From NCBI GenBank assembly GCA_007134215.1, contig SLLG01000269.1, positions 1 to 35,425 of the forward strand: a stretch of DNA of 35,425 nt, written 5' to 3'. A program made the translations under genes and the position numbers. The notes beneath the pieces were generated by a model that searched no databases, was not told where the DNA came from, and worked only from the letters and a program-made list of their open reading frames with translations. Of this stretch, positions 2-14,920 are shown one piece after another. How positions within the stretch are numbered: the stretch's first letter is position 1; every line of letters starts with the position of its first letter. This DNA comes from Opitutales bacterium (GTDB lineage Bacteria; Verrucomicrobiota; Verrucomicrobiia; Opitutales; Oceanipulchritudinaceae).

Positions 2-1771
2 ATGCTTCGTCTTTACAGCACCGTCGAGCGTGACCGCAACCGCCCCTCCGTGGTCGTCTGGTCTTTCGGCAACGAGGATCCGCTCACGACGATGCACGTC
101 TCCGGCGTGCGCGCCCTCAAGGGCATGGACCCGAGCCGCCCGATCCTTTTGCCGTTCCGCGCGGAAGAGGAAACCCCGCCGGAGGTCGACATCCTCGCGC
201 CGCACTACTGGTTCACCGATGAATACGACGAACTCGGCGCCTCCGCGCGGCGGCCCGTGATCACCACGGAGTACACCCACGCCCTCGGCCGCAACCAGGA
301 TTTCGGCGAGTTGGACGAACGTTGGACCGCGCTTACGCAGCACCTCTCGGGCGCCGGCGGATTCATCTGGATGTGGGCTGATATCGGGCTGCGCCGCGAG
401 GTGGCGGGCCGCGAGGTGCTCGACCCGATGGAAGACAAGGACCGCATCACCCGCACAGGCAGCGAGCTGGTCGTGGGCAAGTGGGCCGGGCCTGACGCCG
501 TCTACGACTCGCACGGACGCCACGGCACGGACGGAATCGTCGACGCCGACCGCGAACCGCAGCGCGATTACTGGGAGACGAAGGCTGTCTACGCCCCCGT
601 CCGAATCCTCGCGGACCGCATGCCGCTGGCGCGGGGCCAGACCGAGGTGCGCGTGCCCGTGCGCAACGGGTTCGATTTCCGGAATTTGTCCGACATCACG
701 TTCGAGTGGGAACTGTTCCGCGACGACACGGTGATCGACAGCGGAAGCATGCAAAGGGAAGCGCCGCCGCACGTCACCCGCCGACTCGTGATCCCGGTGA
801 CGGCGATAGAGGAGCTCTCCGGGGCGGTGCACTACCTGCAGTTCACCCTCCGCCGCGACGACGGCAGCGTGATGAACCGCCAGTCCGTGCGTCTCGGTTA
901 CGAGGCAGCGCCGCAGCCAGCCGGGCCGGTGGCATCGAACCGCCCGCGCACACAGACGCGCGGCAACATCCTCACTGTCTCCAACGGACCTGCGTCCTAC
1001 GAGTTCGACACACGCACGGGTGAAATCTCGCGTATCCGCGTGGGCGGGCGCGTCGTCGCCGAGGGGATGGACGTTGTTGTCTGGCGCGACGCCACGTTCA
1101 GCGAGCGCAATCGCTTCGACACGCGCGAGCGCCGCTACGACTGGACGACCTACATGCAGGGGCTCGAACCGGAGTTGCTCTCATGGGATGTCGAGGAATC
1201 CGGCGACGGGGTATCGGTGCGCGTCAGCAGTGAATACCGGAAGGACGAGCTGAATTCGTTTGTCGCGGATATTCATTACAAAATTACGGATACGGGCACG
1301 TTGCGCATCGGCCTCCGCGTCACTCCGGATCTGGACATCACCGAGTTGCCCGAAATCGGCATCGAGCTGGGAACGGGCGGGCACGCCGCCAATCTCACAT
1401 GGCTCGGCGAAGGCCCCATGGATTCGCTGCCGGGCCGCACGTCCGCAACCCACTTCGGGTGGTGGAGCGCCGATATCGGCTCCGAATACGCCGCCGGCAC
1501 AAAATCGGCCATCGAGTGGGCGCGGCTTGGTTTTGACCACGGGGCTGCCGTCCATGTAAAGGATGTCGCCGGTGTGCGCCTCGACGAGCGCGAGGGAGGC
1601 GGCCACGCCTTCCGTATGTTCACGCACCTCGGCGGCGCGTGGACGAAGAACGGCCCCGCCGAACGCCCCGAGTGGCACCTCTCCCTCACCGATGTGGACC
1701 CGTGGTTCGGCCGTGAACTCAACAAGTGGGAATACTTCGAAGGTTCCTTCGAGCTTGTCCCCGTCGAATGA
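2..1771 (+). CDS. Glycoside hydrolase family 2 beta-galactosidase, C-terminal part (5' end outside window)
   Basis: The protein hydrolyses terminal beta-galactosides, probably galactan side chains of pectin or similar oligosaccharides. The window opens inside the TIM barrel, so the first codon here is not the true start. Residue E25 in W-S-F-G-N-E is the GH2 acid/base, and E90 in I-T-T-E-Y-T-H-A is the nucleophile, matching the LacZ E461 and E537 contexts. GGFIWMWADIGL near residue 120 matches the LacZ GGFVWDWVDQ segment. The second half fits the LacZ small-chain domain, with W-L-G-E-G-P near residue 465 resembling LacZ WLGLGP. The N-terminal sugar-binding and jelly-roll domains lie upstream of the window. 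It stands 46 nt before a sugar dehydrogenase on the same strand. The family is clear; the exact substrate is inference from the pectate-lyase neighbourhood. Confidence 0.9.
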   Translation: MLRLYSTVERDRNRPSVVVWSFGNEDPLTTMHVSGVRALKGMDPSRPILLPFRAEEETPPEVDILAPHYWFTDEYDELGASARRPVITTEYTHALGRNQDFGELDERWTALTQHLSGAGGFIWMWADIGLRREVAGREVLDPMEDKDRITRTGSELVVGKWAGPDAVYDSHGRHGTDGIVDADREPQRDYWETKAVYAPVRILADRMPLARGQTEVRVPVRNGFDFRNLSDITFEWELFRDDTVIDSGSMQREAPPHVTRRLVIPVTAIEELSGAVHYLQFTLRRDDGSVMNRQSVRLGYEAAPQPAGPVASNRPRTQTRGNILTVSNGPASYEFDTRTGEISRIRVGGRVVAEGMDVVVWRDATFSERNRFDTRERRYDWTTYMQGLEPELLSWDVEESGDGVSVRVSSEYRKDELNSFVADIHYKITDTGTLRIGLRVTPDLDITELPEIGIELGTGGHAANLTWLGEGPMDSLPGRTSATHFGWWSADIGSEYAAGTKSAIEWARLGFDHGAAVHVKDVAGVRLDEREGGGHAFRMFTHLGGAWTKNGPAERPEWHLSLTDVDPWFGRELNKWEYFEGSFELVPVE

Positions 1772-1817: not shown

Positions 1818-2948
1818 ATGAAACGACCCCTGCGGCTCGGTGTCGTCGGGTTGGGCGAGGGACGCAGCATCCTCTCGGCGGGCGTGCAAAGCCCGCTGTG
1901 GGAAGTCGGGGGTCTGTGCGACCTCGACGCGTCCCTCGGGCGCGCGCGCTGCGCGGAGTTCGGGCTGGATGAATCGCTCTTCACGACTTCCCTCGATTCG
2001 CTGCTGGGCGATGACGGAATCGACGCGGTCGGGATTTACACGCCCGACGCTCTTCACGCTGACCACGTTGTGGCCAGCCTGCGCGCCGGGAAGCACGTCA
2101 TCTGCACAAAACCGTTTGTCATGGATCTCTCGCGCGGGCGGGAGATTCTCGAAGCGGAGAGGTCGTCGGGCAAACGTGTCATGGTCGGGCAGAGCAGCCG
2201 TTTCTTCACGCCGTTTACCCGGCAGCATGAGCACTTCGAAGCCGGGGTGTTCGGGGACATCATCACGGTGGAGGCGTATTACCATGCCGACCACCGGTGG
2301 TTTCTCGACAAACCATGGGCGCGCAAGGATTCGTTCAAGTGGCTCTACGCATGTATCAGCCATCCCGCGGACCTTGTGCGTTGGTATTTGCCGGACGTCG
2401 ACGAGGTAATGGGATTTTCCTCATTGAGCGAAAACGGCCGCGCGCTGGGACTTGTCCATCCGGATACCTTCCACTTCGTCCTCCGGACGACCGGTGGACA
2501 TATCGCGCGCGTGAGCGGTTCGTATTCCGGCCCGACCGTCCCGGAAGCGCGGGACAGCAACATGAGCTGCATCCTCCGCTGTGCGGAAGGCGCAAGCCAA
2601 GCCGATTACTTCGACCTGCGCTACGCATGGAGGGCGGGGGGACAGTCGGTGGTGGAGACGTTCACGGACGAGGATAGTCACTACTTCCGGTTCGCGGGGC
2701 ACTCGCACCATGCCGGCGAGTACCAGAACTACCTCGAATACTTCGCGCGTTGCCTCCACGACGGAACCGTTCCGAAACCCGACGCACGGGAAGGTCTCGT
2801 GACCGTCGCCCTCATGCAGGCGATGGAGGAGGCCTCGGCCCGTGGCGTTGCCGTGAAAGTCGGGGACATCCTCGCCCGGCACGGGCTGGCCGAAATCCCC
2901 GGCAGTCGGGCCACTCCCGCACCTGCCGCCGCGGAAACGGGGCGTTGA
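1818..2948 (+). CDS. Gfo/Idh/MocA family oxidoreductase
   Basis: This is a predicted NAD(P)-dependent sugar or sugar-derivative dehydrogenase of 376 residues acting in the cytoplasm. The N-terminal Rossmann fold starts with R-L-G-V-V-G-L-G-E-G, and the family catalytic lysine is K98 in C-T-K-P-F, where many members have EKP. A candidate active-site histidine lies in A-C-I-S-H-P-A-D-L. The start is well supported: GAGGTGA at 1805-1811 lies 6 nt before the ATG, one of the few good ribosome sites in this window. It sits between the beta-galactosidase and a sodium:solute symporter, suggesting oxidation of an imported or released sugar. The last 25 residues are Pro/Ala-rich and probably disordered. 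The substrate cannot be told from sequence. Confidence 0.88.
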   Translation: MKRPLRLGVVGLGEGRSILSAGVQSPLWEVGGLCDLDASLGRARCAEFGLDESLFTTSLDSLLGDDGIDAVGIYTPDALHADHVVASLRAGKHVICTKPFVMDLSRGREILEAERSSGKRVMVGQSSRFFTPFTRQHEHFEAGVFGDIITVEAYYHADHRWFLDKPWARKDSFKWLYACISHPADLVRWYLPDVDEVMGFSSLSENGRALGLVHPDTFHFVLRTTGGHIARVSGSYSGPTVPEARDSNMSCILRCAEGASQADYFDLRYAWRAGGQSVVETFTDEDSHYFRFAGHSHHAGEYQNYLEYFARCLHDGTVPKPDAREGLVTVALMQAMEEASARGVAVKVGDILARHGLAEIPGSRATPAPAAAETGR

Positions 2949-3011: not shown

Positions 3012-4685
3012 ATGCAACTCATTGACTGGATTGTTGTCGCCGCCTACTTCTGTCTCCTCGTCGGAATCGTCTGGTGGTCTTCGCGACGCCAACGCAACCC
3101 GCAGGACTACTTCCTCGCCGGTCGGGAAATTGGTTGGTTTGTCGTAGGCTGTTCACTCCTCGCTTCGAACATCGGCTCCGAGCACATTGTGGGCCTCGCC
3201 GGAAGCGGCGCCAATCAAGGCATGGCAATGGCCCACTGGGAATTGCACGCGTGGGTCATGATCATTCTCGCGTGGGTCTTCGTACCGTTTTACTACCGCT
3301 CGGGAGTCTTCACAATGCCGGAGTTTCTCGAGCGTCGGTTCGATGCGCGCGCACGGTGGATGCTATCCATCGTATCGCTTGTTGCCTATGTCTTCACAAA
3401 GGTCTCCGTCACCGTCTACGCCGGGGCCATCGTTTTCCAAACACTCCTGCCCGATACCTTCGGCACGCCGCAGAACGCTTTCTGGATCGGTGCCATCACC
3501 ACCGTTGTCCTCACCGGGATCTACACCATTCTCGGCGGTCTGCGGGCGGTCGTCTACACTGAAGTGGCGCAGACGGGGTTGCTCCTCACGGGCTCTCTCT
3601 TCGTGACGATTTTCGGTCTTTCACAGCTCGGCGGTTGGGGCGAGTTGAAGATCACGCTATCCGACCAAGCGGATCAGTTCGCCCTTTGGCGGCCGCTATC
3701 GGATCCGGACTTTCCGTGGCTCGGCGTCCTCATCGCCTCGCCCGTCATCGGTATTTGGTATTGGTGTACCGACCAATACATCGTGCAGCGGACATTGGCT
3801 GCGCGCAATCTGCAGCAGGCGCGCCGGGGCGCGCTCTTCGGTGGTTTCCTCAAGGTTCTACCCGTCTTTCTTTTCCTCGTCCCGGGCATGATCGGGTTTG
3901 CGCTGCACGACAAGGGTTTGATCGAAATCCCCCTTGATCCGAATACAGGCGAACTGCGGGGCGACTCCGTCTTCCCCGCCATGGTTGCCACGCTCCTTCC
4001 CGAGGGGCTGCGCGGCATTGTTGTCGCAGGCTTGATGTCGGCCCTCATGAGTTCGCTCGCCTCCCTCTTCAATTCATGCGCGACGCTCTTTACGATGGAT
4101 ATCTACAAGAAGCTGCGCCCGAACCGTCCGGACAAAGAACTGGTGACAGTCGGACGGTTGGCGACCTCTGTCGTTGTCGTCCTCGGGCTGCTTTGGATTT
4201 TTGTCATGCCTTGGGTCTCACAGGGTGGACTCTACGTATACCTGCAAAGCGTGCAGGGTTACCTTGCTCCGCCCATCACGGCTGTGTTCCTGCTCGGACT
4301 CTTCTTCAAGCGGATCAACTCCCGTGGGGCGATTCTCGGCCTGAGTATCGGATTTTTCCTCGGTATGTTCAAACTAGTCGTGCAGGCCCTTGTCGGCGGC
4401 GAGATTATCGCCGACGCCGGCTTCTTCGGCTGGCTAGGCAACTACCTCTTCCTTTATTATTCCGGCCTGCTCTTCTTTGTGAGCGTGATCATTGTCATTG
4501 TCGGCTCGCTCACTTCCCCCGCGCAGGACGAGAAGTCGATCGAAGGACTCACATGGGGCTCAGTGAACCAACAGCACCGCGATGAGAGCCGCGCCGCATG
4601 GGATTGGCGTGACATCGCGGGAACGGCGGTCGTTCTCGGACTCGTTGTCGGCGTCTACGTCTACTTCAGCTTCTGGCTCAATTGA
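3012..4685 (+). CDS. Sodium:solute symporter (SSS/SLC5 family), sugar transporter type
   Basis: This inner-membrane protein of 557 residues should import a sugar, or another small solute, with sodium ions. It shows the expected run of about 14 hydrophobic helices. The segments D-Y-F-L-A-G-R-E-I-G-W and S-N-I-G-S-E-H-I-V-G-L-A-G in helices 1-2 are typical of SGLT-like members. W-Y-W-C-T-D-Q-Y-I-V-Q-R-T-L-A near residue 250 matches the conserved D-Q-x-x-V-Q-R-x-L segment of the family. Its stop codon overlaps a possible TTG start of the next gene, so the two are very likely cotranscribed. In clusters without SusC/SusD, such symporters usually carry the products of secreted lyases and glycosidases. 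The exact solute is unknown. Confidence 0.92.
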   Translation: MQLIDWIVVAAYFCLLVGIVWWSSRRQRNPQDYFLAGREIGWFVVGCSLLASNIGSEHIVGLAGSGANQGMAMAHWELHAWVMIILAWVFVPFYYRSGVFTMPEFLERRFDARARWMLSIVSLVAYVFTKVSVTVYAGAIVFQTLLPDTFGTPQNAFWIGAITTVVLTGIYTILGGLRAVVYTEVAQTGLLLTGSLFVTIFGLSQLGGWGELKITLSDQADQFALWRPLSDPDFPWLGVLIASPVIGIWYWCTDQYIVQRTLAARNLQQARRGALFGGFLKVLPVFLFLVPGMIGFALHDKGLIEIPLDPNTGELRGDSVFPAMVATLLPEGLRGIVVAGLMSALMSSLASLFNSCATLFTMDIYKKLRPNRPDKELVTVGRLATSVVVVLGLLWIFVMPWVSQGGLYVYLQSVQGYLAPPITAVFLLGLFFKRINSRGAILGLSIGFFLGMFKLVVQALVGGEIIADAGFFGWLGNYLFLYYSGLLFFVSVIIVIVGSLTSPAQDEKSIEGLTWGSVNQQHRDESRAAWDWRDIAGTAVVLGLVVGVYVYFSFWLN

Positions 4686-4693
4686 TCTTTAGC

Positions 4694-6826
4694 ATGATCC
4701 TACTCAATACCCAGATTCCCTTTCTCCGTTTCGCGGCGTGCGTCACGCTGCTTGGCCTCTGTGCGTCTGCGTGGGGCGGTCCGGCGGTTCTGAACTACGC
4801 TGAAGAGCTGGCACGCGAGGCGTCAGTGGAGGTTTCCTACGTGATCGACGAGACGCTCGGTCATCCGGAGGCGTTCCGCATCGAGCGCGGCGAGGGCGGC
4901 GCGGCGGCGATCGTCGCCGGCGGCCCGGGCGGTGTGCTCTACGGCGTCCAGGAGTTGCGCCTTCCGCACACGGTTGTCGGTGCCGAAGGAATGCCCGATT
5001 TCGATGTGCGCGGGACGGTTCTCATGATGCTGAGCGCGTCGTGGTCCTACCAGTCGGAGTTGAGCCCGGAGCGCTACCCGTGGTTTTTCGACCGCGAGTT
5101 GATGACCCGGTATCTCGACTACATCCTGTCGGCGCGCTTCAACACGGTCGTCATCTGGTCGGGGCACCTCTTTCCGCACATCCTTGAGTTGCCGGAGTAT
5201 CCGGATGCCTCGCGTTTCAGCGCGGAGGAAATCCGGCGCAACCAGGAGCAGTTCAACTGGTTCGCGGAGGAAGCGGCGAAGCGGAACATCTCCGTGCTTA
5301 CGCACTTCTACAACATCCACATCAGCGAAGACCTCGCCCGTGCAAAGGGCAGGGAAGGGCGCGACCCCACCCGCTACTCCGAGCCGGATGATTTCGTGCG
5401 GGAGTACTACCACACGATCCTCCTCCGCTACCTTGAGACGTTTCCCAACGTCAGCCTGTATATCTGTCCGGGCGAGTCGCTCGCGCTCGAGCACCAGGAA
5501 GCATGGTTCCGCGATGTCATTTTCCGTGCTGCGCGCGACAGCGGCAGGAATCCGCACCTTGTCATCCGCGACTGGACGCTCGATCCGGAGTTTATGCGGA
5601 AACTGCCCGACATGTATGAAAACCTCTCCTCGGAGCTGAAGCACAACGACGAGACGATCACCAGCACGTGGCCGGACCTCCGCCACCGCGAGTGGGCCGG
5701 TGTCCTCAAGGGACACATCATCAACCTCCACGATCCCTCCGACGCCACGCCGTACCGCGTGGGCAGCCCGCGCATGTTCGGTGAGATGGTGCGCCGCTGG
5801 CATGAAGAGGGCTATATGACCGGGGCGTGGTTCTACCCGCCGCAATGCTGGATCTGGCCGGACACACTCGACATCGTGCGCGACGAAGACGGTGGAGAGA
5901 GCACGCTCATGACCTTCGACCGCGATGAGATGTGGCACCTCATTCAAGGCCGCCTCCTCTGGAAGGCGGAACGCGACTCGGACGAGGAGTTCCGCTGGGC
6001 CGCCGATTGGCTTGGCCGGAAGTTCGGGTACGACCGCGTAGGAGCGAAACTCGTCGAGTGGTACGACCTCACCGCGCCGATTCTCCCGGGTCTGCAAAAC
6101 CTGACATCCATCCGCTTCGGTAATTTCTTTCCTCCGTCCATTGCCCGTGTGCAGGCGGATGTTGACGGTATCCTGCACTACCGCACCTCCATCGGCGAGA
6201 GCCCCATTGAAGGGGCCACCGGCCTGACGAATCAGCGATACTACAGCCGGCCGGTAGATGAGTTCACGCTCGAACGCTACAAGCGCAAACACGGGATTGA
6301 CGAACTGCGCGATCCGCACAGCGTGCCGGTCTCCGTCTATGTCGACCGGGTGGTGGACGGCGGCGATCTTGACGGCTACGTCCTCCCCGTTGAGTTAATC
6401 GATCTCTATCAGGAGATGGCGATTGAGTCGCGCGCCCGCGCGCGGACCGCGTCCGTGATGCCCGTGAATGATCCGGCGGAGATGCGCCGCTTTGTGCAGG
6501 ACAGTGAAATCCTCCTCTTAACGGTTGACTACTACCGCCACAAGATCCTTGCCGCGATGGAGAAACGGTTCTACGAGCGGACGGGTGATCCGGCGCGACT
6601 CCAAGCGTTCCGCGCCCACATGGAGGCATCCGTCCCGGCCTACAAGCGGATGTTCCAATACGCGGAGCAGTTTTACCGTGCCGGAACATCCATGTGGGAC
6701 GCCAAGTCGTGGGAGCGAACCCTCGACGAACGCGTCATTTGGGACTATGAACAGCAGATCCATTGGATTGAAAACCCAGGCGACCGTTCCCCCGCCATCT
6801 GGGATCCCACCCGCGGAAACGACTGA
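4694..6826 (+). CDS. Secreted protein of unknown function, glycoside-hydrolase-like (GH20/GH67-type N-terminal fold suspected)
   Basis: I do not recognise a named family. I chose the ATG at 4694 over an in-frame TTG at 4682, giving 710 residues that begin with a signal peptide (hydrophobic core to about residue 26, then A-S-A-W-G). Residues about 30-100 look like the small alpha/beta domain found ahead of GH20, GH67 and GH115 barrels: a line of beta strands with A-I-V-A-G-G-P-G-G and V-L-Y-G-V-Q-E-L. From about residue 105 the pattern suggests a TIM barrel, with R-F-N-T-V-V-I-W-S-G-H and V-S-L-Y-I-C-P-G-E-S; E261 in P-G-E-S and the acids near D-W-T-L-D-P-E are candidate catalytic residues. 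The gene lies between a symporter and another secreted sugar-active protein, so a role on pectin-derived oligosaccharides is plausible but inferred. Confidence 0.8.
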   Translation: MILLNTQIPFLRFAACVTLLGLCASAWGGPAVLNYAEELAREASVEVSYVIDETLGHPEAFRIERGEGGAAAIVAGGPGGVLYGVQELRLPHTVVGAEGMPDFDVRGTVLMMLSASWSYQSELSPERYPWFFDRELMTRYLDYILSARFNTVVIWSGHLFPHILELPEYPDASRFSAEEIRRNQEQFNWFAEEAAKRNISVLTHFYNIHISEDLARAKGREGRDPTRYSEPDDFVREYYHTILLRYLETFPNVSLYICPGESLALEHQEAWFRDVIFRAARDSGRNPHLVIRDWTLDPEFMRKLPDMYENLSSELKHNDETITSTWPDLRHREWAGVLKGHIINLHDPSDATPYRVGSPRMFGEMVRRWHEEGYMTGAWFYPPQCWIWPDTLDIVRDEDGGESTLMTFDRDEMWHLIQGRLLWKAERDSDEEFRWAADWLGRKFGYDRVGAKLVEWYDLTAPILPGLQNLTSIRFGNFFPPSIARVQADVDGILHYRTSIGESPIEGATGLTNQRYYSRPVDEFTLERYKRKHGIDELRDPHSVPVSVYVDRVVDGGDLDGYVLPVELIDLYQEMAIESRARARTASVMPVNDPAEMRRFVQDSEILLLTVDYYRHKILAAMEKRFYERTGDPARLQAFRAHMEASVPAYKRMFQYAEQFYRAGTSMWDAKSWERTLDERVIWDYEQQIHWIENPGDRSPAIWDPTRGND

Positions 6827-6855
6827 CCTCCGCCAACCCCGGACCGACCCGATTG

Positions 6856-8550
6856 ATGAACTCCATGCCCCGATATGTCCGTCGCCTCCTTCTCGCGGGA
6901 TTCGCCGTCTTCGGCGTGTGTTGCACGCTATCCGCGGAGGTCGTGCAAATGACCGAGTCAGTCCCCAACCACAGAGTGTTCGAGGCCGTTGTCACCAATG
7001 ACCGCGACTACGACAACAAGTTCACCGACACCGAACTGCTCGTGCAGTACCAGGCGCCCTCCGGACGGATTGTAGAGTTCCGCGGATTTTTTGACGGACA
7101 CGGCGACGGCACGGGCGACGCGCGCTCAGGAAATGTTTGGAAGATGCGCTTTATGCCGGATGAGGTCGGCACATGGCGGTTTGTCTACCGCTGGACGGAC
7201 GGTACACCGGGCGGGCGCGGAAGCTTCGAGAGCGTGGCGGATGGCGCCGGTCCGGGGATCATCAAGGCCTACCGCAAGAATCCGCGCTGGTTCGCCTACA
7301 ACGGAACGGATCCCGTGTGGTTGAAGTCCTATTACGAAACCGGCCACGGCTCGCTCGGGCAGGACTTTGACTGGATCGTGGAAAACGTATACCAGCCGCT
7401 CGTCGACCACGGGTACAACCACTTGCAGGTCAATTGGCTCATGTCCCTTTGCTGTTTCGAGCAATACTACCTCGACGGTCCGGAGCCGGAAACACTCGAT
7501 CTCGCGCTTTACAAGGAAGGAAAGCCGTCCTCCACCATGAACCTCGATGTCTGGCACCGCAAGGAGCGGCACCTCGGTTGGCTGAACGACTACGACGTCG
7601 GGGTGCACATGTTCCTTGGCTTCGAGGGCGCGAAGAACGAAGGCCCTCGGTGGGATAAGTTGAGCTATGAGGAGAAAGATTTCTACGTGCGCTACTCCGT
7701 CGCCCGCATGGGAGCCCACGCGAACATCGCCGGGTGGAATTTCGTATGGGAGGTCCCCGGGGACCGCGTCGACTACGAACTAGGCTTCACCCGCTTGGTC
7801 ATGCAATACGATGTCTTCGACCACCTGCGCACTTACGAAGATGAGTTTCCCCGCTACAATCACTTCGACCTTCCCGAATACACCTTTGCGGCTGTCGAGA
7901 ATCACGAGATCGCCGCCCCTACGAAGGACATGGAACGCTACCACATCTGGCGCGACGCATGGACACACCACATGGCGTGCCTGCTCGGCTACCGCGGCAA
8001 ACCCGTCTATATGTCGGAGGGCAACGCACTCTGGCGCCGCTTCTGGCAGGAGTTGACGGAAGCGACCCAGGACGATCTCCGCCGGTCGGCGTGGGCCTGC
8101 GTGACAGCCGGCGCTTCCTTCAACTGGAACGGGCACGCCGGCGAATACGAACTCTACGCGGGCGGACCGACCGGCCTGCCGTTCAACAAGGAGAATGAAT
8201 ACACCAAATCCGAGCGGGCGGTGCAGATTGTCGCCGACGTGATGACCGGCGAGGTGGAGTTTTACCGCATGCGCCCGAACGACTTTCTCCTTGTCGGGCA
8301 CCAGCCTCTCCGCGTCTATGCCCTCGCCGAGGAGGGGCGCCAGTATTTGGTCTTTGCCCCGGACGGCGAGCCGTTTTCCTTGCGCATGAAGGCCGGGGAT
8401 TACGGGCGCGTCCGCTGGGTTGATACGGTTACCGGCAAGCGTATCGACGCCGCGCCTGTGCGCAGCGGCGGAGTCGATGACCCTGTGGCCTTCACCGCGC
8501 CCGACGGCGACACCGACTGGGTGCTGGTCGTGCGCTCGAAGGCGGATTGA
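6856..8550 (+). CDS. Secreted DUF5060 / DUF4038-like glycoside hydrolase-type protein
   Basis: This 564-residue protein starts with a signal peptide (R-R-L-L-L-A-G-F-A-V-F-G-V-C-C core, cleavage near S-A-E). An in-frame TTG lies one codon upstream, but the ATG at 6856 is the likelier start. Residues about 30-125 form a DUF5060-like beta domain, with N-D-R-D-Y-D-N-K-F and W-K-M-R-F-M-P-D-E-V-G-T-W-R-F typical of that family. The following barrel resembles the DUF4038/apiosidase-like group: W-L-K-S-Y-Y-E-T-G-H, G-W-N-F-V-W-E-V-P-G and P-V-Y-M-S-E-G-N-A-L-W carry the likely catalytic acids. A small C-terminal beta domain follows from about residue 470. Family members act on plant cell-wall side chains, fitting the neighbouring pectate lyases. 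The exact linkage cleaved is unknown. Confidence 0.82.
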   Translation: MNSMPRYVRRLLLAGFAVFGVCCTLSAEVVQMTESVPNHRVFEAVVTNDRDYDNKFTDTELLVQYQAPSGRIVEFRGFFDGHGDGTGDARSGNVWKMRFMPDEVGTWRFVYRWTDGTPGGRGSFESVADGAGPGIIKAYRKNPRWFAYNGTDPVWLKSYYETGHGSLGQDFDWIVENVYQPLVDHGYNHLQVNWLMSLCCFEQYYLDGPEPETLDLALYKEGKPSSTMNLDVWHRKERHLGWLNDYDVGVHMFLGFEGAKNEGPRWDKLSYEEKDFYVRYSVARMGAHANIAGWNFVWEVPGDRVDYELGFTRLVMQYDVFDHLRTYEDEFPRYNHFDLPEYTFAAVENHEIAAPTKDMERYHIWRDAWTHHMACLLGYRGKPVYMSEGNALWRRFWQELTEATQDDLRRSAWACVTAGASFNWNGHAGEYELYAGGPTGLPFNKENEYTKSERAVQIVADVMTGEVEFYRMRPNDFLLVGHQPLRVYALAEEGRQYLVFAPDGEPFSLRMKAGDYGRVRWVDTVTGKRIDAAPVRSGGVDDPVAFTAPDGDTDWVLVVRSKAD

Positions 8551-8591: not shown

Positions 8592-9605
8592 ATGAACATG
8601 AAAAAGCAACACACAAACATAACCCGACGCATCCGCGTGTTGGCCTACGGTGCCATTGGCACCGTGTTCGCCGCCGCGGGGGCCTCGCTCTCCGCCGGTG
8701 CCGCGGAAGAGATTCCGCCGCAGCGTATGACCATCGCGCAGGCCTTTGAGCCGGTGGTCGTCGACGGTCTCTCCAACGACCGCGTCTGGGAACGCGGAGC
8801 GCTGACCTACGGGTTCCTGCGGTCCGATGACGGCGAACCCGCGCGCCACGGCACCCGGGCACGCGCCATCTACGACCGCACGCACCTCTATTTTGCCTTC
8901 ACCGCTATGGAGGCCGCGGTCGACGATGTCCTCGCCGACGCGCGCCGGGGCGGAAACGACCGGCGCGCCCATGACACGGTGGGCGTCCGCCTGGCGGTGC
9001 CCTCCGGGGAAGGGGAGTACCGTGAGGTCGAAATCCGCGTGAATCCCGCCAACCGCGCGTGGGTGATGGTCGACGGGCGCGAGCGGCGCGGCGGACTCGA
9101 CGGCTTGCGCACGGGCGTCTTCGAGCGTGAGCGCAGTTGGGACGCCGAGATTGCGATACCTTTTGCCGCGCTCGGCGTGGACGAGCCCCGTGTCGGTGAT
9201 GTCTGGGGGATCGACTTTCTCCGCCACCGGGCCCAGCGCGGGGACGCCGCCGCCGAATCAACGGCGTGGAATCCACCGGGCGGCAAGGGCGAACTGCGTT
9301 TCGGTCGCGACCTCATCGTCTATCTCTACTCGCAGCGTCCCTTCACCGGGCGTGACGAGGTCATGGTCTATAATCCTTCCGACCAACTGCGCCAGTTGCG
9401 CGCGGAGATGATTGACGCCACGACCGGCAAGGTCGTCGCGCACGAAACGATCTACCTCGGCTCCGGTCACCGCCGCCAGCACTATCCGCTGCCCGCGCCG
9501 GACGTCGGCGATTACTACCTCATTGTCCGGCAGACGGACCGTCCCCTCGAGAGCGACGACGACAAGCTCGTGGAGTGGCGGCCGCACCGTTCCGGGCGCC
9601 GCTGA
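8592..9605 (+). CDS. Secreted carbohydrate-binding family 9-like (CBM9/DOMON-like) protein
   Basis: The 337-residue protein has a long, charged N-terminus (M-N-M-K-K-Q) and a hydrophobic stretch to A-G-A-A, consistent with a signal peptide; a second ATG at 8598 is possible. Residues about 50-230 match the CBM9-like fold seen in many secreted proteins of sugar degraders: V-V-V-D-G-L-S-N-D-R-V-W-E, A-I-Y-D-R-T-H-L-Y-F-A-F, D-T-V-G-V-R-L-A and W-D-A-E-I-A-I-P-F-A-A-L. A further beta-rich part of about 90 residues follows from Y-S-Q-R-P-F. No catalytic site is evident. It probably binds glycan or helps another enzyme in the cluster. It lies 41 nt downstream of the DUF5060 protein gene. Confidence 0.78.
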   Translation: MNMKKQHTNITRRIRVLAYGAIGTVFAAAGASLSAGAAEEIPPQRMTIAQAFEPVVVDGLSNDRVWERGALTYGFLRSDDGEPARHGTRARAIYDRTHLYFAFTAMEAAVDDVLADARRGGNDRRAHDTVGVRLAVPSGEGEYREVEIRVNPANRAWVMVDGRERRGGLDGLRTGVFERERSWDAEIAIPFAALGVDEPRVGDVWGIDFLRHRAQRGDAAAESTAWNPPGGKGELRFGRDLIVYLYSQRPFTGRDEVMVYNPSDQLRQLRAEMIDATTGKVVAHETIYLGSGHRRQHYPLPAPDVGDYYLIVRQTDRPLESDDDKLVEWRPHRSGRR

Positions 9606-9650: not shown

Positions 9651-11231
9651 ATGTTTTTGAAGCCAATTACAGTATCTCTCTTCCTCATTCTCGCCGGCGG
9701 CGCCTTTGCCGCCGACCATGTGCGCCCGGGTCATCTGCCCGCTCCCACGGTCGTCGACCGTCCGCCCGTGAACGTGGACCACGTTTTCACCCCCGGTGAT
9801 CTCCCGCAGGCTGACATGCCCGCCTTTCCCGGCGCGGAGGGCGGAGGCAAATACAGCTTCGGCGGGCGCGGCGGGCGCGTCATTGTTGTGACGAGCCTTG
9901 AGGACAGCGGTCCAGGCACCTTCCGCGAGGCGGTCGAGGCCGAAGGCCCGCGCATCGTCATCTTCAATGTTGCGGGGATCATCCGGCTGGAGTCGAAGGT
10001 TCACATCACCAATCCCTACCTCACCCTTGTCGGGCACACCGCGCCGGGCGACGGCGTGGTCATCGGCGGCGCCACCGTCGATATCGACACCCACGACGTT
10101 GTCGTCCGCTACATGCGCTTCCGGCGGGGCCTTATCACATCGCATGCGGCCCGCGACGGTGCCATGGGCACGGGCAATCCGGTCGGCAACATCATTGTCG
10201 ACCATTCATCCTTCAGCTGGGGCCTCGACGAGAACATCTCGCTCTACCGCCACACCTACCGCGCCCCCGGCGAAGGCAAGCTCTACGTCGGTCCGGTGCG
10301 CAACCTCACCATCCAGTGGTCGATCTCCAGCGAGGCGCTCGACACGTACAACCACGCCTTCGGGGGTACATGGGGCGGCCGCAACAGCAGTTTCCACCAC
10401 AACCTCTTTGCCAACAACACCGCGCGCAACCCGAGCATCGGCATGGGCTTCAACTTCAATTTCACGAACAACGTGCTCTTCAACTGGCGGCACCGTACCG
10501 TGGACGGCGGCGACCACCGCAGCCGGGTGAATGTCATCAACAACTACTACAAGCCCGGTCCGGCCACGCGCGATGGACCCATCCAGTACCGCATCGGCCG
10601 TGTGCAGCCGAACCCCGATCGCGCCGACAATTCCATCCGTCGTTGGCCGCTCTGGTATGCGCGCGGCAATGTCGTCGAGGGCTACCCCGAGGTCACCGCC
10701 GACAACTGGAAGGGGATGGAGTTTCACGACGATCCCTACCTTGATGACGACGCCTTGGTGGAGCTGACGCGTTCCAAGGATCCGTTCCCCATGGCGCCGG
10801 TCACCCTCCGCACCGCCGAGCGGGCCTACGCACTCGTTCTCGACTACGCGGGCGCAAGCCTTCCCCGCCGCGACGATGTCGACGAGCGTATCATCCGCGA
10901 GGTGCGCACCGGCGAGGTCACCTACAAGGAGGGCAACGGCATCATCACCGATATCGAGCAGGTCGGCGGCTTCCCCGAATACCACGGCGAGCCCTACAAG
11001 GACAGCAGCGGCGACGGCATCCCGGACTGGTGGAAGATCCGCTTCGGGCTCGATCCGGACGACCCGTCCGACGCCTACCTCGACATGAGCGGCGACGGTT
11101 TTAACAACTTCGAGTGCTTCATCTACGGGCTTGACCCTTGGAAGTACATCGATTGGCGTGACCCCGCGAACAATGTGAACACGCTCCGCGACCCGAAAAA
11201 CACCCTCGTCCGTAATCCCGCGAAACCGTAG
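9651..11231 (+). CDS. Secreted pectate lyase, polysaccharide lyase family 1 type
   Basis: This 526-residue enzyme should cleave polygalacturonate by beta-elimination outside the cytoplasm. Residues 1-20 form a signal peptide ending A-F-A. The mature part begins with A-F-P-G-A-E-G-G-G-K-Y-S-F-G-G-R-G-G, the usual start of this PL1 group, and continues as a right-handed beta helix rich in V-x-N-N-x and H-H-N repeats (S-F-H-H-N-L-F-A-N-N, V-N-V-I-N-N-Y-Y-K-P-G). The usual R-x-P-R site reads R259-N-P-S262 here, so the first Arg is kept and the second is lost. The tail (from about residue 445) has S-G-D-G-I-P-D-W-W and a second S-G-D-G-F motif, probably calcium binding. A similar lyase gene lies 1.8 kb downstream. 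Confidence 0.9.
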   Translation: MFLKPITVSLFLILAGGAFAADHVRPGHLPAPTVVDRPPVNVDHVFTPGDLPQADMPAFPGAEGGGKYSFGGRGGRVIVVTSLEDSGPGTFREAVEAEGPRIVIFNVAGIIRLESKVHITNPYLTLVGHTAPGDGVVIGGATVDIDTHDVVVRYMRFRRGLITSHAARDGAMGTGNPVGNIIVDHSSFSWGLDENISLYRHTYRAPGEGKLYVGPVRNLTIQWSISSEALDTYNHAFGGTWGGRNSSFHHNLFANNTARNPSIGMGFNFNFTNNVLFNWRHRTVDGGDHRSRVNVINNYYKPGPATRDGPIQYRIGRVQPNPDRADNSIRRWPLWYARGNVVEGYPEVTADNWKGMEFHDDPYLDDDALVELTRSKDPFPMAPVTLRTAERAYALVLDYAGASLPRRDDVDERIIREVRTGEVTYKEGNGIITDIEQVGGFPEYHGEPYKDSSGDGIPDWWKIRFGLDPDDPSDAYLDMSGDGFNNFECFIYGLDPWKYIDWRDPANNVNTLRDPKNTLVRNPAKP

Positions 11232-13036: not shown

Positions 13037-13045
13037 ATGAAAATA
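13030..13045. promoter_or_regulatory. 16-bp perfect palindrome across the lyase start codon
   Basis: TATTTTCATGAAAATA is a perfect palindrome centred on the CATG that holds the start codon of the lyase gene (ATG at 13037). It stands out as AT-rich in a GC-rich region. It could be an operator or an RNA stem that hides the start codon. No known regulator site is claimed. Confidence 0.4.
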
Positions 13046-14920
13046 CAATCGCTCCTTTCCCGCCCCCGGTGCCGTCGCTGTCCGCCTGTGCGGGGTCTTC
13101 TCGATTCCGTGGCCGTCGTTGCCCGCCTCTCCGCGTTGGCTCTGATCTTTTCGTGGGTGCTCGCGGCACCGCTCGACGCCGACGACCGGCTTCCCGCTTT
13201 TCCGGGCGCGGAAGGATTCGGCAAATACACCACCGGGGGAACCCGGCTTGCGCCGGAGGTCACGCGCCCAATCCCGATCACCGTGCACAAGGTGACCAAC
13301 CTCAACGACGGCGGGCCGGGCAGTCTTCGCGCGGCGATCAACGCCTCCGGTCCCCGTGTCGTCATCTTCGAGGTGTCCGGGACGATCCGGCTGCGCTCGA
13401 ACCTCGTCATCTCCAACGCCATGATCACCATCGCCGGTCAGACGGCCCCCGGCGACGGCATCTGCATCACCGGTTACCCCGTCATCATTGACGCCAGTAA
13501 TGTTGTCCTCCGGTTTTTGCGCATCCGCCTCGGCGACGAATTCGACCAAGAGGCCGATTCGCTCGAGATTCTGCAGGGTCGCGGCAACATCATCATCGAC
13601 CACTGCTCGTTCAGCTTCGGTGTGGATGAGACATTCTCAGCCTACGCCGTTAGAAACGTTACCGTGCAGTGGTGCATCATCAGCGAGAGTCTCTACGAGT
13701 CGATCCATGACAAGGGGACGCACGGATACGGATCGATCCTCGGCGGCGAGGGGATGAGCTTTCACCACAATCTCTACGCCCATCACTCCAGCCGCACGCC
13801 GCGCTTCAACGGCGGGCGCGCCAACACGGCGGGCACCGAACTCGTCGATTTCCGCAACAACGTCATTTACAACTGGGGCTTCAACGGGGCGCACGGCGGG
13901 GAGGTCGGGGCGAGGATCAACATTGTCAACAATTACTACAAGGCGGGGCCCGCGACCCGTCCGGACCAGCGCCGATACCGCATCGTCGAGCCGACATCCG
14001 ACCGCCTCATGTCGGGAGAGATTTTGCTCGATGACGAAGGCCGGCCCTACCACACGAGCCAGTGGTATGTGCACGGCAACTACGTGCATGGCTTCCCCGA
14101 GGTGACGGCGGACAACTGGGCGGGCGGTGTGCAGGGCGCCTTCGCCGACAATCCGGAAATCCGCGCACACGAGCCGTTTCCGGTCGAGCATCAACTGCCG
14201 GAGTTCAGCGCGGAGGAGGCATTCGAGCGCGTGATGCGCTACGCCGGGGCGTCCCTTCCGCGGCGCGACGCCATCGACCGGCGCATCATCAGCGAGACGC
14301 GCACGGGCACCGCTACCTTCGGTGCTTCCTACGGCGCGGGCACGGGCATTATCGACACACCTTCGGATGTCGGCGGCCTACCGGAACTGGGCAGCACCGA
14401 GGCGCCGCTGGATTCCGACGGCGACGGCATTCCCGACTGGTGGGAGATTGCCAACGGCCTCGACCCGCACGACCCCTCCGATGCACACCGCGTCGACGAC
14501 CCCTCCGGCTACACCAACCTTGAGCTGTACCTCAACGAACTCGCCGCCGCCGCCATGCCGGAGTGGCTTCCCAATGCCGTCGACCGGATCGTGCACGGCG
14601 CCCAGACGGTTTCTCCGGAACTCCTTGCCGAGCGGGGCTATGGTTGGCCGGCTGAATGGAGCGCTTACGCCCATCCGGACTTCGGCGCTTTCCTGCGTGC
14701 GCCTGAGTCGGACTGGATCTTTTCGCTTTCCGAAGAGACATGGTTGTATCCGTTCTCCATTGTGCCCGGCGAGTTCCACTTCTACGATCCCTCCGGGGAC
14801 GCATGGCACTGGTCCGCCGCGGGCCTCGGCGGTCATTTCTGGTCGAATACGGACGCGGCGTGGCGGAAAATCGACCGTCTGAACCTCGCGGCAGATGCCG
14901 ACCTTTCGCAACAGCGGTAA
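13037..14920 (+). CDS. Secreted pectate lyase, PL1 type, with extra aromatic-rich C-terminal domain
   Basis: This 627-residue enzyme should depolymerise polygalacturonate outside the cytoplasm. The N-terminus is long and Arg-rich, followed by a hydrophobic core ([11 protein letters not shown]) ending near residue 45. The catalytic beta helix begins [15 protein letters not shown] and includes the usual R-x-P-R site as R253-T-P-R256 after H-H-N-L-Y-A-H-H. A calcium-type tail ([11 protein letters not shown]) lies near residue 460. Beyond it, residues about 505-627 form a further domain with [13 protein letters not shown] and W-H-W-S-A-A, not part of PL1. A short orphan frame at 17058 carries a similar motif. 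It is a paralogue of the lyase at 9651, with the more canonical active site. Confidence 0.9.

Follow-up and report, generated by a model that had tools for sequence, protein, structure and literature searches.

The closest described relatives of the gene analyzed here are the GH138 glycoside hydrolases BPa0997 and BT0997. GH138 enzymes reportedly retain the configuration of their substrate, with E294 serving as acid/base and E361 as nucleophile, and the enzyme is said to consist of four domains; BT0997 is said to need a second galacturonic acid (GalA), and R332 and R521 are reported to set the specificity. We take R332 and R521 of BPa0997 to be these specificity arginines, the former corresponding to R292 in the protein described here. 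The D-apiose pathway reportedly includes a Gfo/Idh/MocA dehydrogenase and a DUF1537 kinase. In the literature on rhamnogalacturonan II (RG-II), BT0997 is described as an alpha-galacturonidase acting on alpha-1,2-linked GalA of RG-II, and BT1017 as an RG-II methylesterase with a DUF3826 module (PMC7939467); RuBisCO-like proteins are described as taking part in the breakdown of D-apiose, which occurs in RG-II and apiogalacturonan (PMC6302742).

We analyzed a gene encoded in a stretch of 35,425 nucleotides from an Opitutales bacterium, referred to as the window, whose product resembles these enzymes in sequence and predicted fold. With it, the GH138 kind of enzyme, characterized from Bacteroides and from RG-II digestion, reaches into a distinct clade whose members come from Verrucomicrobiota, Planctomycetota and Acidobacteriota, and this clade is tied to a candidate apiose pathway.

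The GH138-like gene and its neighborhood

Positions 4694-6823 of the plus strand translate into 710 residues with a stop codon next, and relatives of the product, 33-92% identical to it, occur in three phyla. Since this conservation is far beyond chance, the open reading frame proposed in the sequence-only reading is real (Table 1). The protein may have either 710 or 714 residues, because an in-frame TTG at 4682, 12 bases 5' of the start at 4694, overlaps the stop codon of the symporter gene (4683-4685), and the copy in a sister genome has methionine at both candidate positions. Residues 1-26 are hydrophobic and are modeled with a pLDDT under 50; a signal peptide, as proposed earlier, is probable here, and the protein is probably secreted. 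An open reading frame of 498 aa on the opposite strand (4823-6319) was rejected as a gene, as the plus-strand protein is conserved across phyla.

Table 1. Features of the window discussed in the text, with their positions and the basis of each assignment.
Feature	Position	Strand	Remarks
GH138-like glycoside hydrolase gene, stop included	4694..6826	+	710 aa; start possibly 4682
Probable signal peptide, residues about 1-26	4694..4771	+	hydrophobic N-terminus, pLDDT under 50
Codon of E261, predicted acid/base, aligned with BPa0997 E294	5474..5476	+	after barrel strand 4
Codon of R292, aligned with BPa0997 R332	5567..5569	+	sequence alignment
Codon of E320, predicted nucleophile, aligned with BPa0997 E361	5651..5653	+	after barrel strand 6
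Residues 465-481, PG(L/M)QN and following stretch, replacing the GITEGNRQT loop	6086..6136	+	alignment
GH2, LacZ type, cut by the left end of the window	2..1771	+	domain scans; full copy in L050
Gfo/Idh/MocA oxidoreductase, candidate D-apiose dehydrogenase	1818..2948	+	co-occurs with the clade and with GH138
Sodium:solute symporter (SSF)	3012..4685	+	Pfam
DUF5060 + Collagen_bind_2 protein	6853..8550	+	Pfam; 22% to the DUF5060-Apiosidase protein of a GH138 locus, remote
PelZ-like pectate lyase	9651..11231	+	Pfam/NCBIfam
PelZ-like pectate lyase	13037..14920	+	Pfam/NCBIfam

The gene lies, as described previously, between a symporter and a DUF5060 protein, and the assignment of this region to a pectin cluster is borne out by two PelZ-like pectate lyases downstream, between which a second symporter is encoded. 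The tools applied assigned no function to the Gfo/Idh/MocA (Gfo) protein. The 337-aa protein encoded at 8592-9605 matched neither a Pfam nor an NCBIfam family, and among solved structures it had no significant relative; it is conserved at 83% in a congeneric genome. The row of genes as a whole is preserved, at identities of 83-97%, in an Opitutales metagenome-assembled genome (MAG) of this genus (L050), where a GH95-GH88 protein and a full GH2 stand ahead of the conserved row. The former is encoded by one open reading frame (L050:556-4026) of 1156 aa with GH95 and GH88 domains, which may be a true fusion or a product of the assembly. Another genome of the genus (G514) showed no match to the GH138-like gene at E <= 1e-50, and the distribution of the gene is sporadic.

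Sequence and predicted fold relate the protein to GH138

A Pfam scan of the protein returned no family at E up to 1. The NCBIfam alpha-d-galacturonidase model NF049878, on the other hand, matches residues 54-474 with an E-value of 3.2e-58 and 197.5 bits; this does not reach the curated cut-off of 1300 bits, which does not discriminate here, as not one of the 372 genomes sampled from the order attains it. In a phmmer search, the solved GH138 enzyme BPa0997 (6hze/6hzf/6hzg) matches residues 45-468 (E 6.9e-44), so that sequence similarity to a characterized GH138 member is present across the catalytic domain. A profile of 15 clade rows aligned with L074, a close relative of BPa0997 (1332 bits), over 564 columns with probability 100 and E 2.9e-66 (hhalign).

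A structure model predicted from 50 homologues (pLDDT 88.8, pTM 0.90) has a lead alpha/beta domain, then a barrel, then a helical tail; a first AlphaFold2 model from 5 rows (pLDDT 64.9, pTM 0.50) was left out of structural matching. The top Foldseek match of the model is BPa0997 (E 4.4e-39), and the three BPa0997 entries head the VIA-align results with Z 34.9-35.9 over 618-622 residues at 2.7-2.8 A. Compared with 6hzg (Z 35.9, 618 residues, 2.7 A), the model has the lead domain, TIM barrel and helical domain of GH138. GH138 sequences also entered the alignment from which the model was built, which makes the evidence from sequence and from fold partly interdependent. The next-best folds are GH20 (Z 22) and GH84 (Z about 20), the absence of a family from the VIA-align list not being taken as evidence. 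The model thus contains both the GH20-like lead domain and the barrel expected from the sequence-only reading; the hexosaminidases of GH20 and GH84 share these two elements, but at 9-14% identity and with no sequence match to the query, so that the resemblance is one of fold only.

That reading had found no CAZy family for the protein and suggested that it might represent a new one. The confident match to a characterized glycoside hydrolase family, GH138, mostly refutes the suggestion, and the structure prediction, with its best match to BPa0997, argues against a new family as well; only a weaker version of the suggestion survives, given the lack of a Pfam model, the position in a separate sister clade and the changed specificity loop. 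Identity to BPa0997 in the structural alignment is only 22-24%. The protein is about 180 residues shorter than BPa0997 (893 residues), and the match of the model stops at residue 718-725, with nothing matching beyond 725 and the C-terminal domain of GH138 left unmatched. Lengths in the clade are 685-753 aa in 16 of 19 rows; the other three (856, 866 and 954 aa) have C-terminal additions, which lie outside the comparison with the C-terminal domain of GH138. Because neither the R521 loop nor the C-terminal domain was found, we describe the protein as GH138-like, on the basis of sequence and predicted fold, and refrain from counting it as a member of GH138, although similarity may well lead CAZy to include it in that family. 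Titles and abstract openings on GH138, galacturonidase, rhamnogalacturonan II, Verrucomicrobiota and Planctomycetota, a body of text in which subscription journals are mostly uncovered, include none about the sister clade.

A sister clade of GH138

We reconstructed a phylogeny of 67 rows from the catalytic core and drew it with a midpoint root; the tree program flagged long branches where the outer groups meet the remaining rows. The query clade (19 rows, branch support 98/92) contains sequences from Opitutales, Opitutaceae, Planctomycetota, an Akkermansiaceae MAG and Luteitalea (Acidobacteriota), the outermost of which are only 33-41% identical to the query. GH138 itself, with BPa0997 included, makes up a group of 33 rows (95/64); a branch with support 100/100 unites it with the query clade to the exclusion of two outer groups. 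In the sampled tree, the query clade is accordingly placed by its sequences as sister to GH138 and not nested within it.

Several sequences were dropped before the tree was built and the counts were made: L003 and L006 (contigs of L050 and L060), L089 (same start as L052, taken as a duplicate) and the fragments L084, L037, L049 and L076. A 55-residue match (L086) is outside the sequence set, and the identical L055 and L092 were both counted. L093, from genome G680, is a long-branch relative without the GNRQT loop that joins GH138 weakly (95/64); it is counted among the 33 GH138 rows.

Conserved catalytic acids and a changed specificity loop

Barrel strands were taken from the model (residues 105-111, 151-155, 200-206, 253-258, 289-292, 311-316, 340-345 and 377-380). 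E261, which the sequence-only reading had named as a candidate acid, aligns with the GH138 acid/base E294. The further candidates seen around D-W-T-L-D (293-297) do not hold up, as this motif follows the conserved R292 and by homology holds no catalytic acid; the second predicted acid is E320, absent from the earlier candidates. It aligns with E361, and a solved BPa0997 entry is labeled E361S. In the alignment E261, E320 and R292 are invariant in all 19 clade rows and all 33 GH138 rows, as are K316, N344, H346, W388, P389, R410, D411, R420 and W423.

The two groups differ around R521, which in BPa0997 is located in the motif GITEGNRQT and has no aligned counterpart in the clade. The core of the motif, GNRQT, is present in 0/19 clade rows as opposed to 31/33 GH138 rows, the two exceptions being L093 and the segment of BPa0997 used, which ends at 511. 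The clade has PG(L/M)QN at this site, mostly followed by RFGN; the block-mean pLDDT of residues 471-490 is only 66 and 71, and R474 is not invariant (R in 12/15 rows, K in L059 and L060, Y in L061). Position 334 is H in 32/33 GH138 rows and W in 19/19 clade rows, and position 333 is T, G, A or S in GH138 but D in 18/19 clade rows. Residues specific to the clade are D293, W294, P259, Q468 and N469. As R521 and GNRQT are missing from every clade row, the sugar-acid pocket of the clade probably differs from that of GH138.

Pectin genes and candidate apiose genes in related loci

In Pelagicoccus sp. SDUM812005 (L055) the GH138-like gene is part of a tightly packed run of genes on a single strand. 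The run begins with a RuBisCO-like protein, a DUF1537 kinase (SBD_N/NBD_C, Pfam domains which we take to be the same as DUF1537), an Asp/Glu racemase-like protein, an SBF transporter and a Gfo/Idh/MocA protein, and continues with a sugar-binding protein, an ABC protein, a permease, the GH138-like gene and GH28. The genome from which the window comes encodes GH127, GH78, RuBisCO-like, kinase, racemase-like and SBF proteins side by side on another contig (C336; L096:6718-16219), the last five of these (GH78 to SBF) being ordered as in the Pelagicoccus locus, where GH78 is represented by a cut end only. By analogy with the described pathway, the association of the clade gene with Gfo, a RuBisCO-like protein and a DUF1537 kinase in an operon-like run points to the use of apiose from rhamnogalacturonan II, and the Gfo protein of the window is a good candidate for an enzyme of the RG-II or apiose pathway.

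Gfo proteins 65-67% identical to that of the window are encoded in GH138 loci of other Verrucomicrobiota (L068, L075, L083 and L085). In L068 a DUF5060-Apiosidase protein, GH127, a GH43-like protein and DUF3826 are found near GH138; DUF3826 also stands beside a GH138-like relative (30% identity) in L133. GH95, or a match of 734-751 residues to the GH95-GH88 protein of L050, occurs near the clade gene in five loci: GH95 together with GH2 in L050, L131 and L060, and matches to the GH95-GH88 protein in L132 and L133. L053, L054, L056, L130 and L134 have few or no pectin genes in their scanned parts. These statements refer to a Pfam scan of neighbors that excluded L052, L058 and L059, and gene calls in the loci are crude.

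Co-occurrence with the oxidoreductase gene

For the order, 372 genomes were sampled at even spacing out of a larger group. The clade is present in nine of them and GH138 proper in 12, among which G398, G628, G672, G678 and G694 were called by score alone, outside the tree; two unclear genomes, G429 (a fragment) and G680 (L093), were assigned to neither group. An orthologue of the window Gfo gene at E <= 1e-110 was found in 17 of the 372 genomes. These comprise eight of the nine clade genomes (all but G489) and nine of the 12 GH138 genomes (all but G398, G628 and G694), as compared with none of the remaining 351 (Fisher p 6e-26). No more than 6 kb separate the Gfo gene from the clade gene in 7/8 genomes; for the GH138 gene this holds in only 1/9.

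None of the 21 genomes of the sample carrying either gene was found to have both, with the proviso that in many genomes only the top two or three first-look candidates were scored, which could hide a second gene; every candidate was scored in 19 genomes. Because co-presence would be expected only about 0.3 times among 372 genomes, exclusivity across the whole sample says little. Within the 17 Gfo-bearing genomes, each has exactly one of the two (clade in eight, GH138 in nine), a pattern with a chance of 1 in 24310 if the genes were unlinked, or 1 in 462 when counted by 11 genera, although the shared ancestry of the sampled genomes weakens all of these statistics, exclusivity included. The pattern suggests that clade and GH138 proteins share one role. 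Exclusivity is not universal, since G362, from outside the order, combines a clade gene with a fragment, located on a different contig, that aligns to the GH138 model over its C-terminal half.

Proposed function and alternatives

We consider the protein to be a retaining alpha-D-galacturonidase of GH138 type that acts on chain A of RG-II and feeds an RG-II and apiose pathway, and we give this reading a probability of about 0.6. The enzyme would remove alpha-linked galacturonic acid from pectin, its most likely target being GalA-alpha-1,2-rhamnose in side chain A of RG-II or some variant of that structure. Cleavage would proceed by double displacement, with E261 as acid/base and E320 as nucleophile, while R292 may help to hold the sugar acid. 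In eight of the 17 sampled Gfo-bearing genomes of its order, the clade takes the place of GH138. Several observations count against this reading: the missing GNRQT motif and the altered positions 333 and 334, the end of the match to BPa0997 at residue 725, the NCBIfam score below its cut-off, the LacZ type of the GH2 in the window, the Gfo protein to which no tool assigned a function, the sporadic distribution of the gene, the clade gene of G489, which occurs without a Gfo match at 1e-110, and the loci with few pectin genes.

It is possible, if doubtful, that the same fold and catalytic pair serve another substrate, namely alpha-GalA of apiogalacturonan or of the RG-I backbone, esterified GalA or some other sugar, with the loop rebuilt where GH138 has R521. 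Such a loop would make room for a different acceptor or a different uronic acid. The missing GNRQT loop and the five clade-specific residues are consistent with such a change, and the nearby pectate lyases and GH95-GH88 protein would suit other pectins too; the presence of exactly one of clade and GH138 in each Gfo genome suggests a shared role instead, and the catalytic residues and most of the compared barrel residues are unchanged. It is rather unlikely that the clade, as a separate family-level branch within a GH138 superfamily, has remodeled the loop that binds the carboxylate, cleaves an alpha-galacturonide that GH138 does not and has displaced GH138 in part of the order; its targets could be, for example, apiogalacturonan, or RG-II chain A without the demand of GH138 for a second GalA.

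A catalytically dead binding or scaffold protein is very improbable, as both acids are invariant in the query clade (19/19), even though the second of them is gone from a cousin clade further out in the tree. We give still less credence to an entirely new CAZy family with a mechanism unrelated to GH138: this would fit the lack of a Pfam model and the low identity of the outer clade members to the query, but conflicts with the matches to GH138 in sequence and fold and with the presence of both catalytic acids. The exchange of clade and GH138 beside the same oxidoreductase makes it possible to examine directly what sets the specificity of GH138, since R521 is absent while the catalytic pair and the equivalent of R332 remain.

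Outer groups of the tree

One of the outer groups, from the phylum of the window, is a third cousin clade of 13 sequences (L015, L017, L018, L033, L034, L038, L039, L041, L042, L043, L045, L046 and L048) with lengths of 583-769 aa, some of them cut by the end of the locus. Its members have a homologous barrel and keep the equivalents of E261 and R292 in 13/13 rows, but form a separate clade and have S or A at the E320/E361 site in 13/13. Those scanned match NF049878 only, and weakly (L034, E 2.5e-34); going by its sequences, this clade looks like an uncharacterized family. L040 (G114) and L047 (G375) are long proteins that make up a fourth group, in which both acids, R292 and K316 are kept, whereas H341, N344, H346, W388 and P389 are sites of difference.
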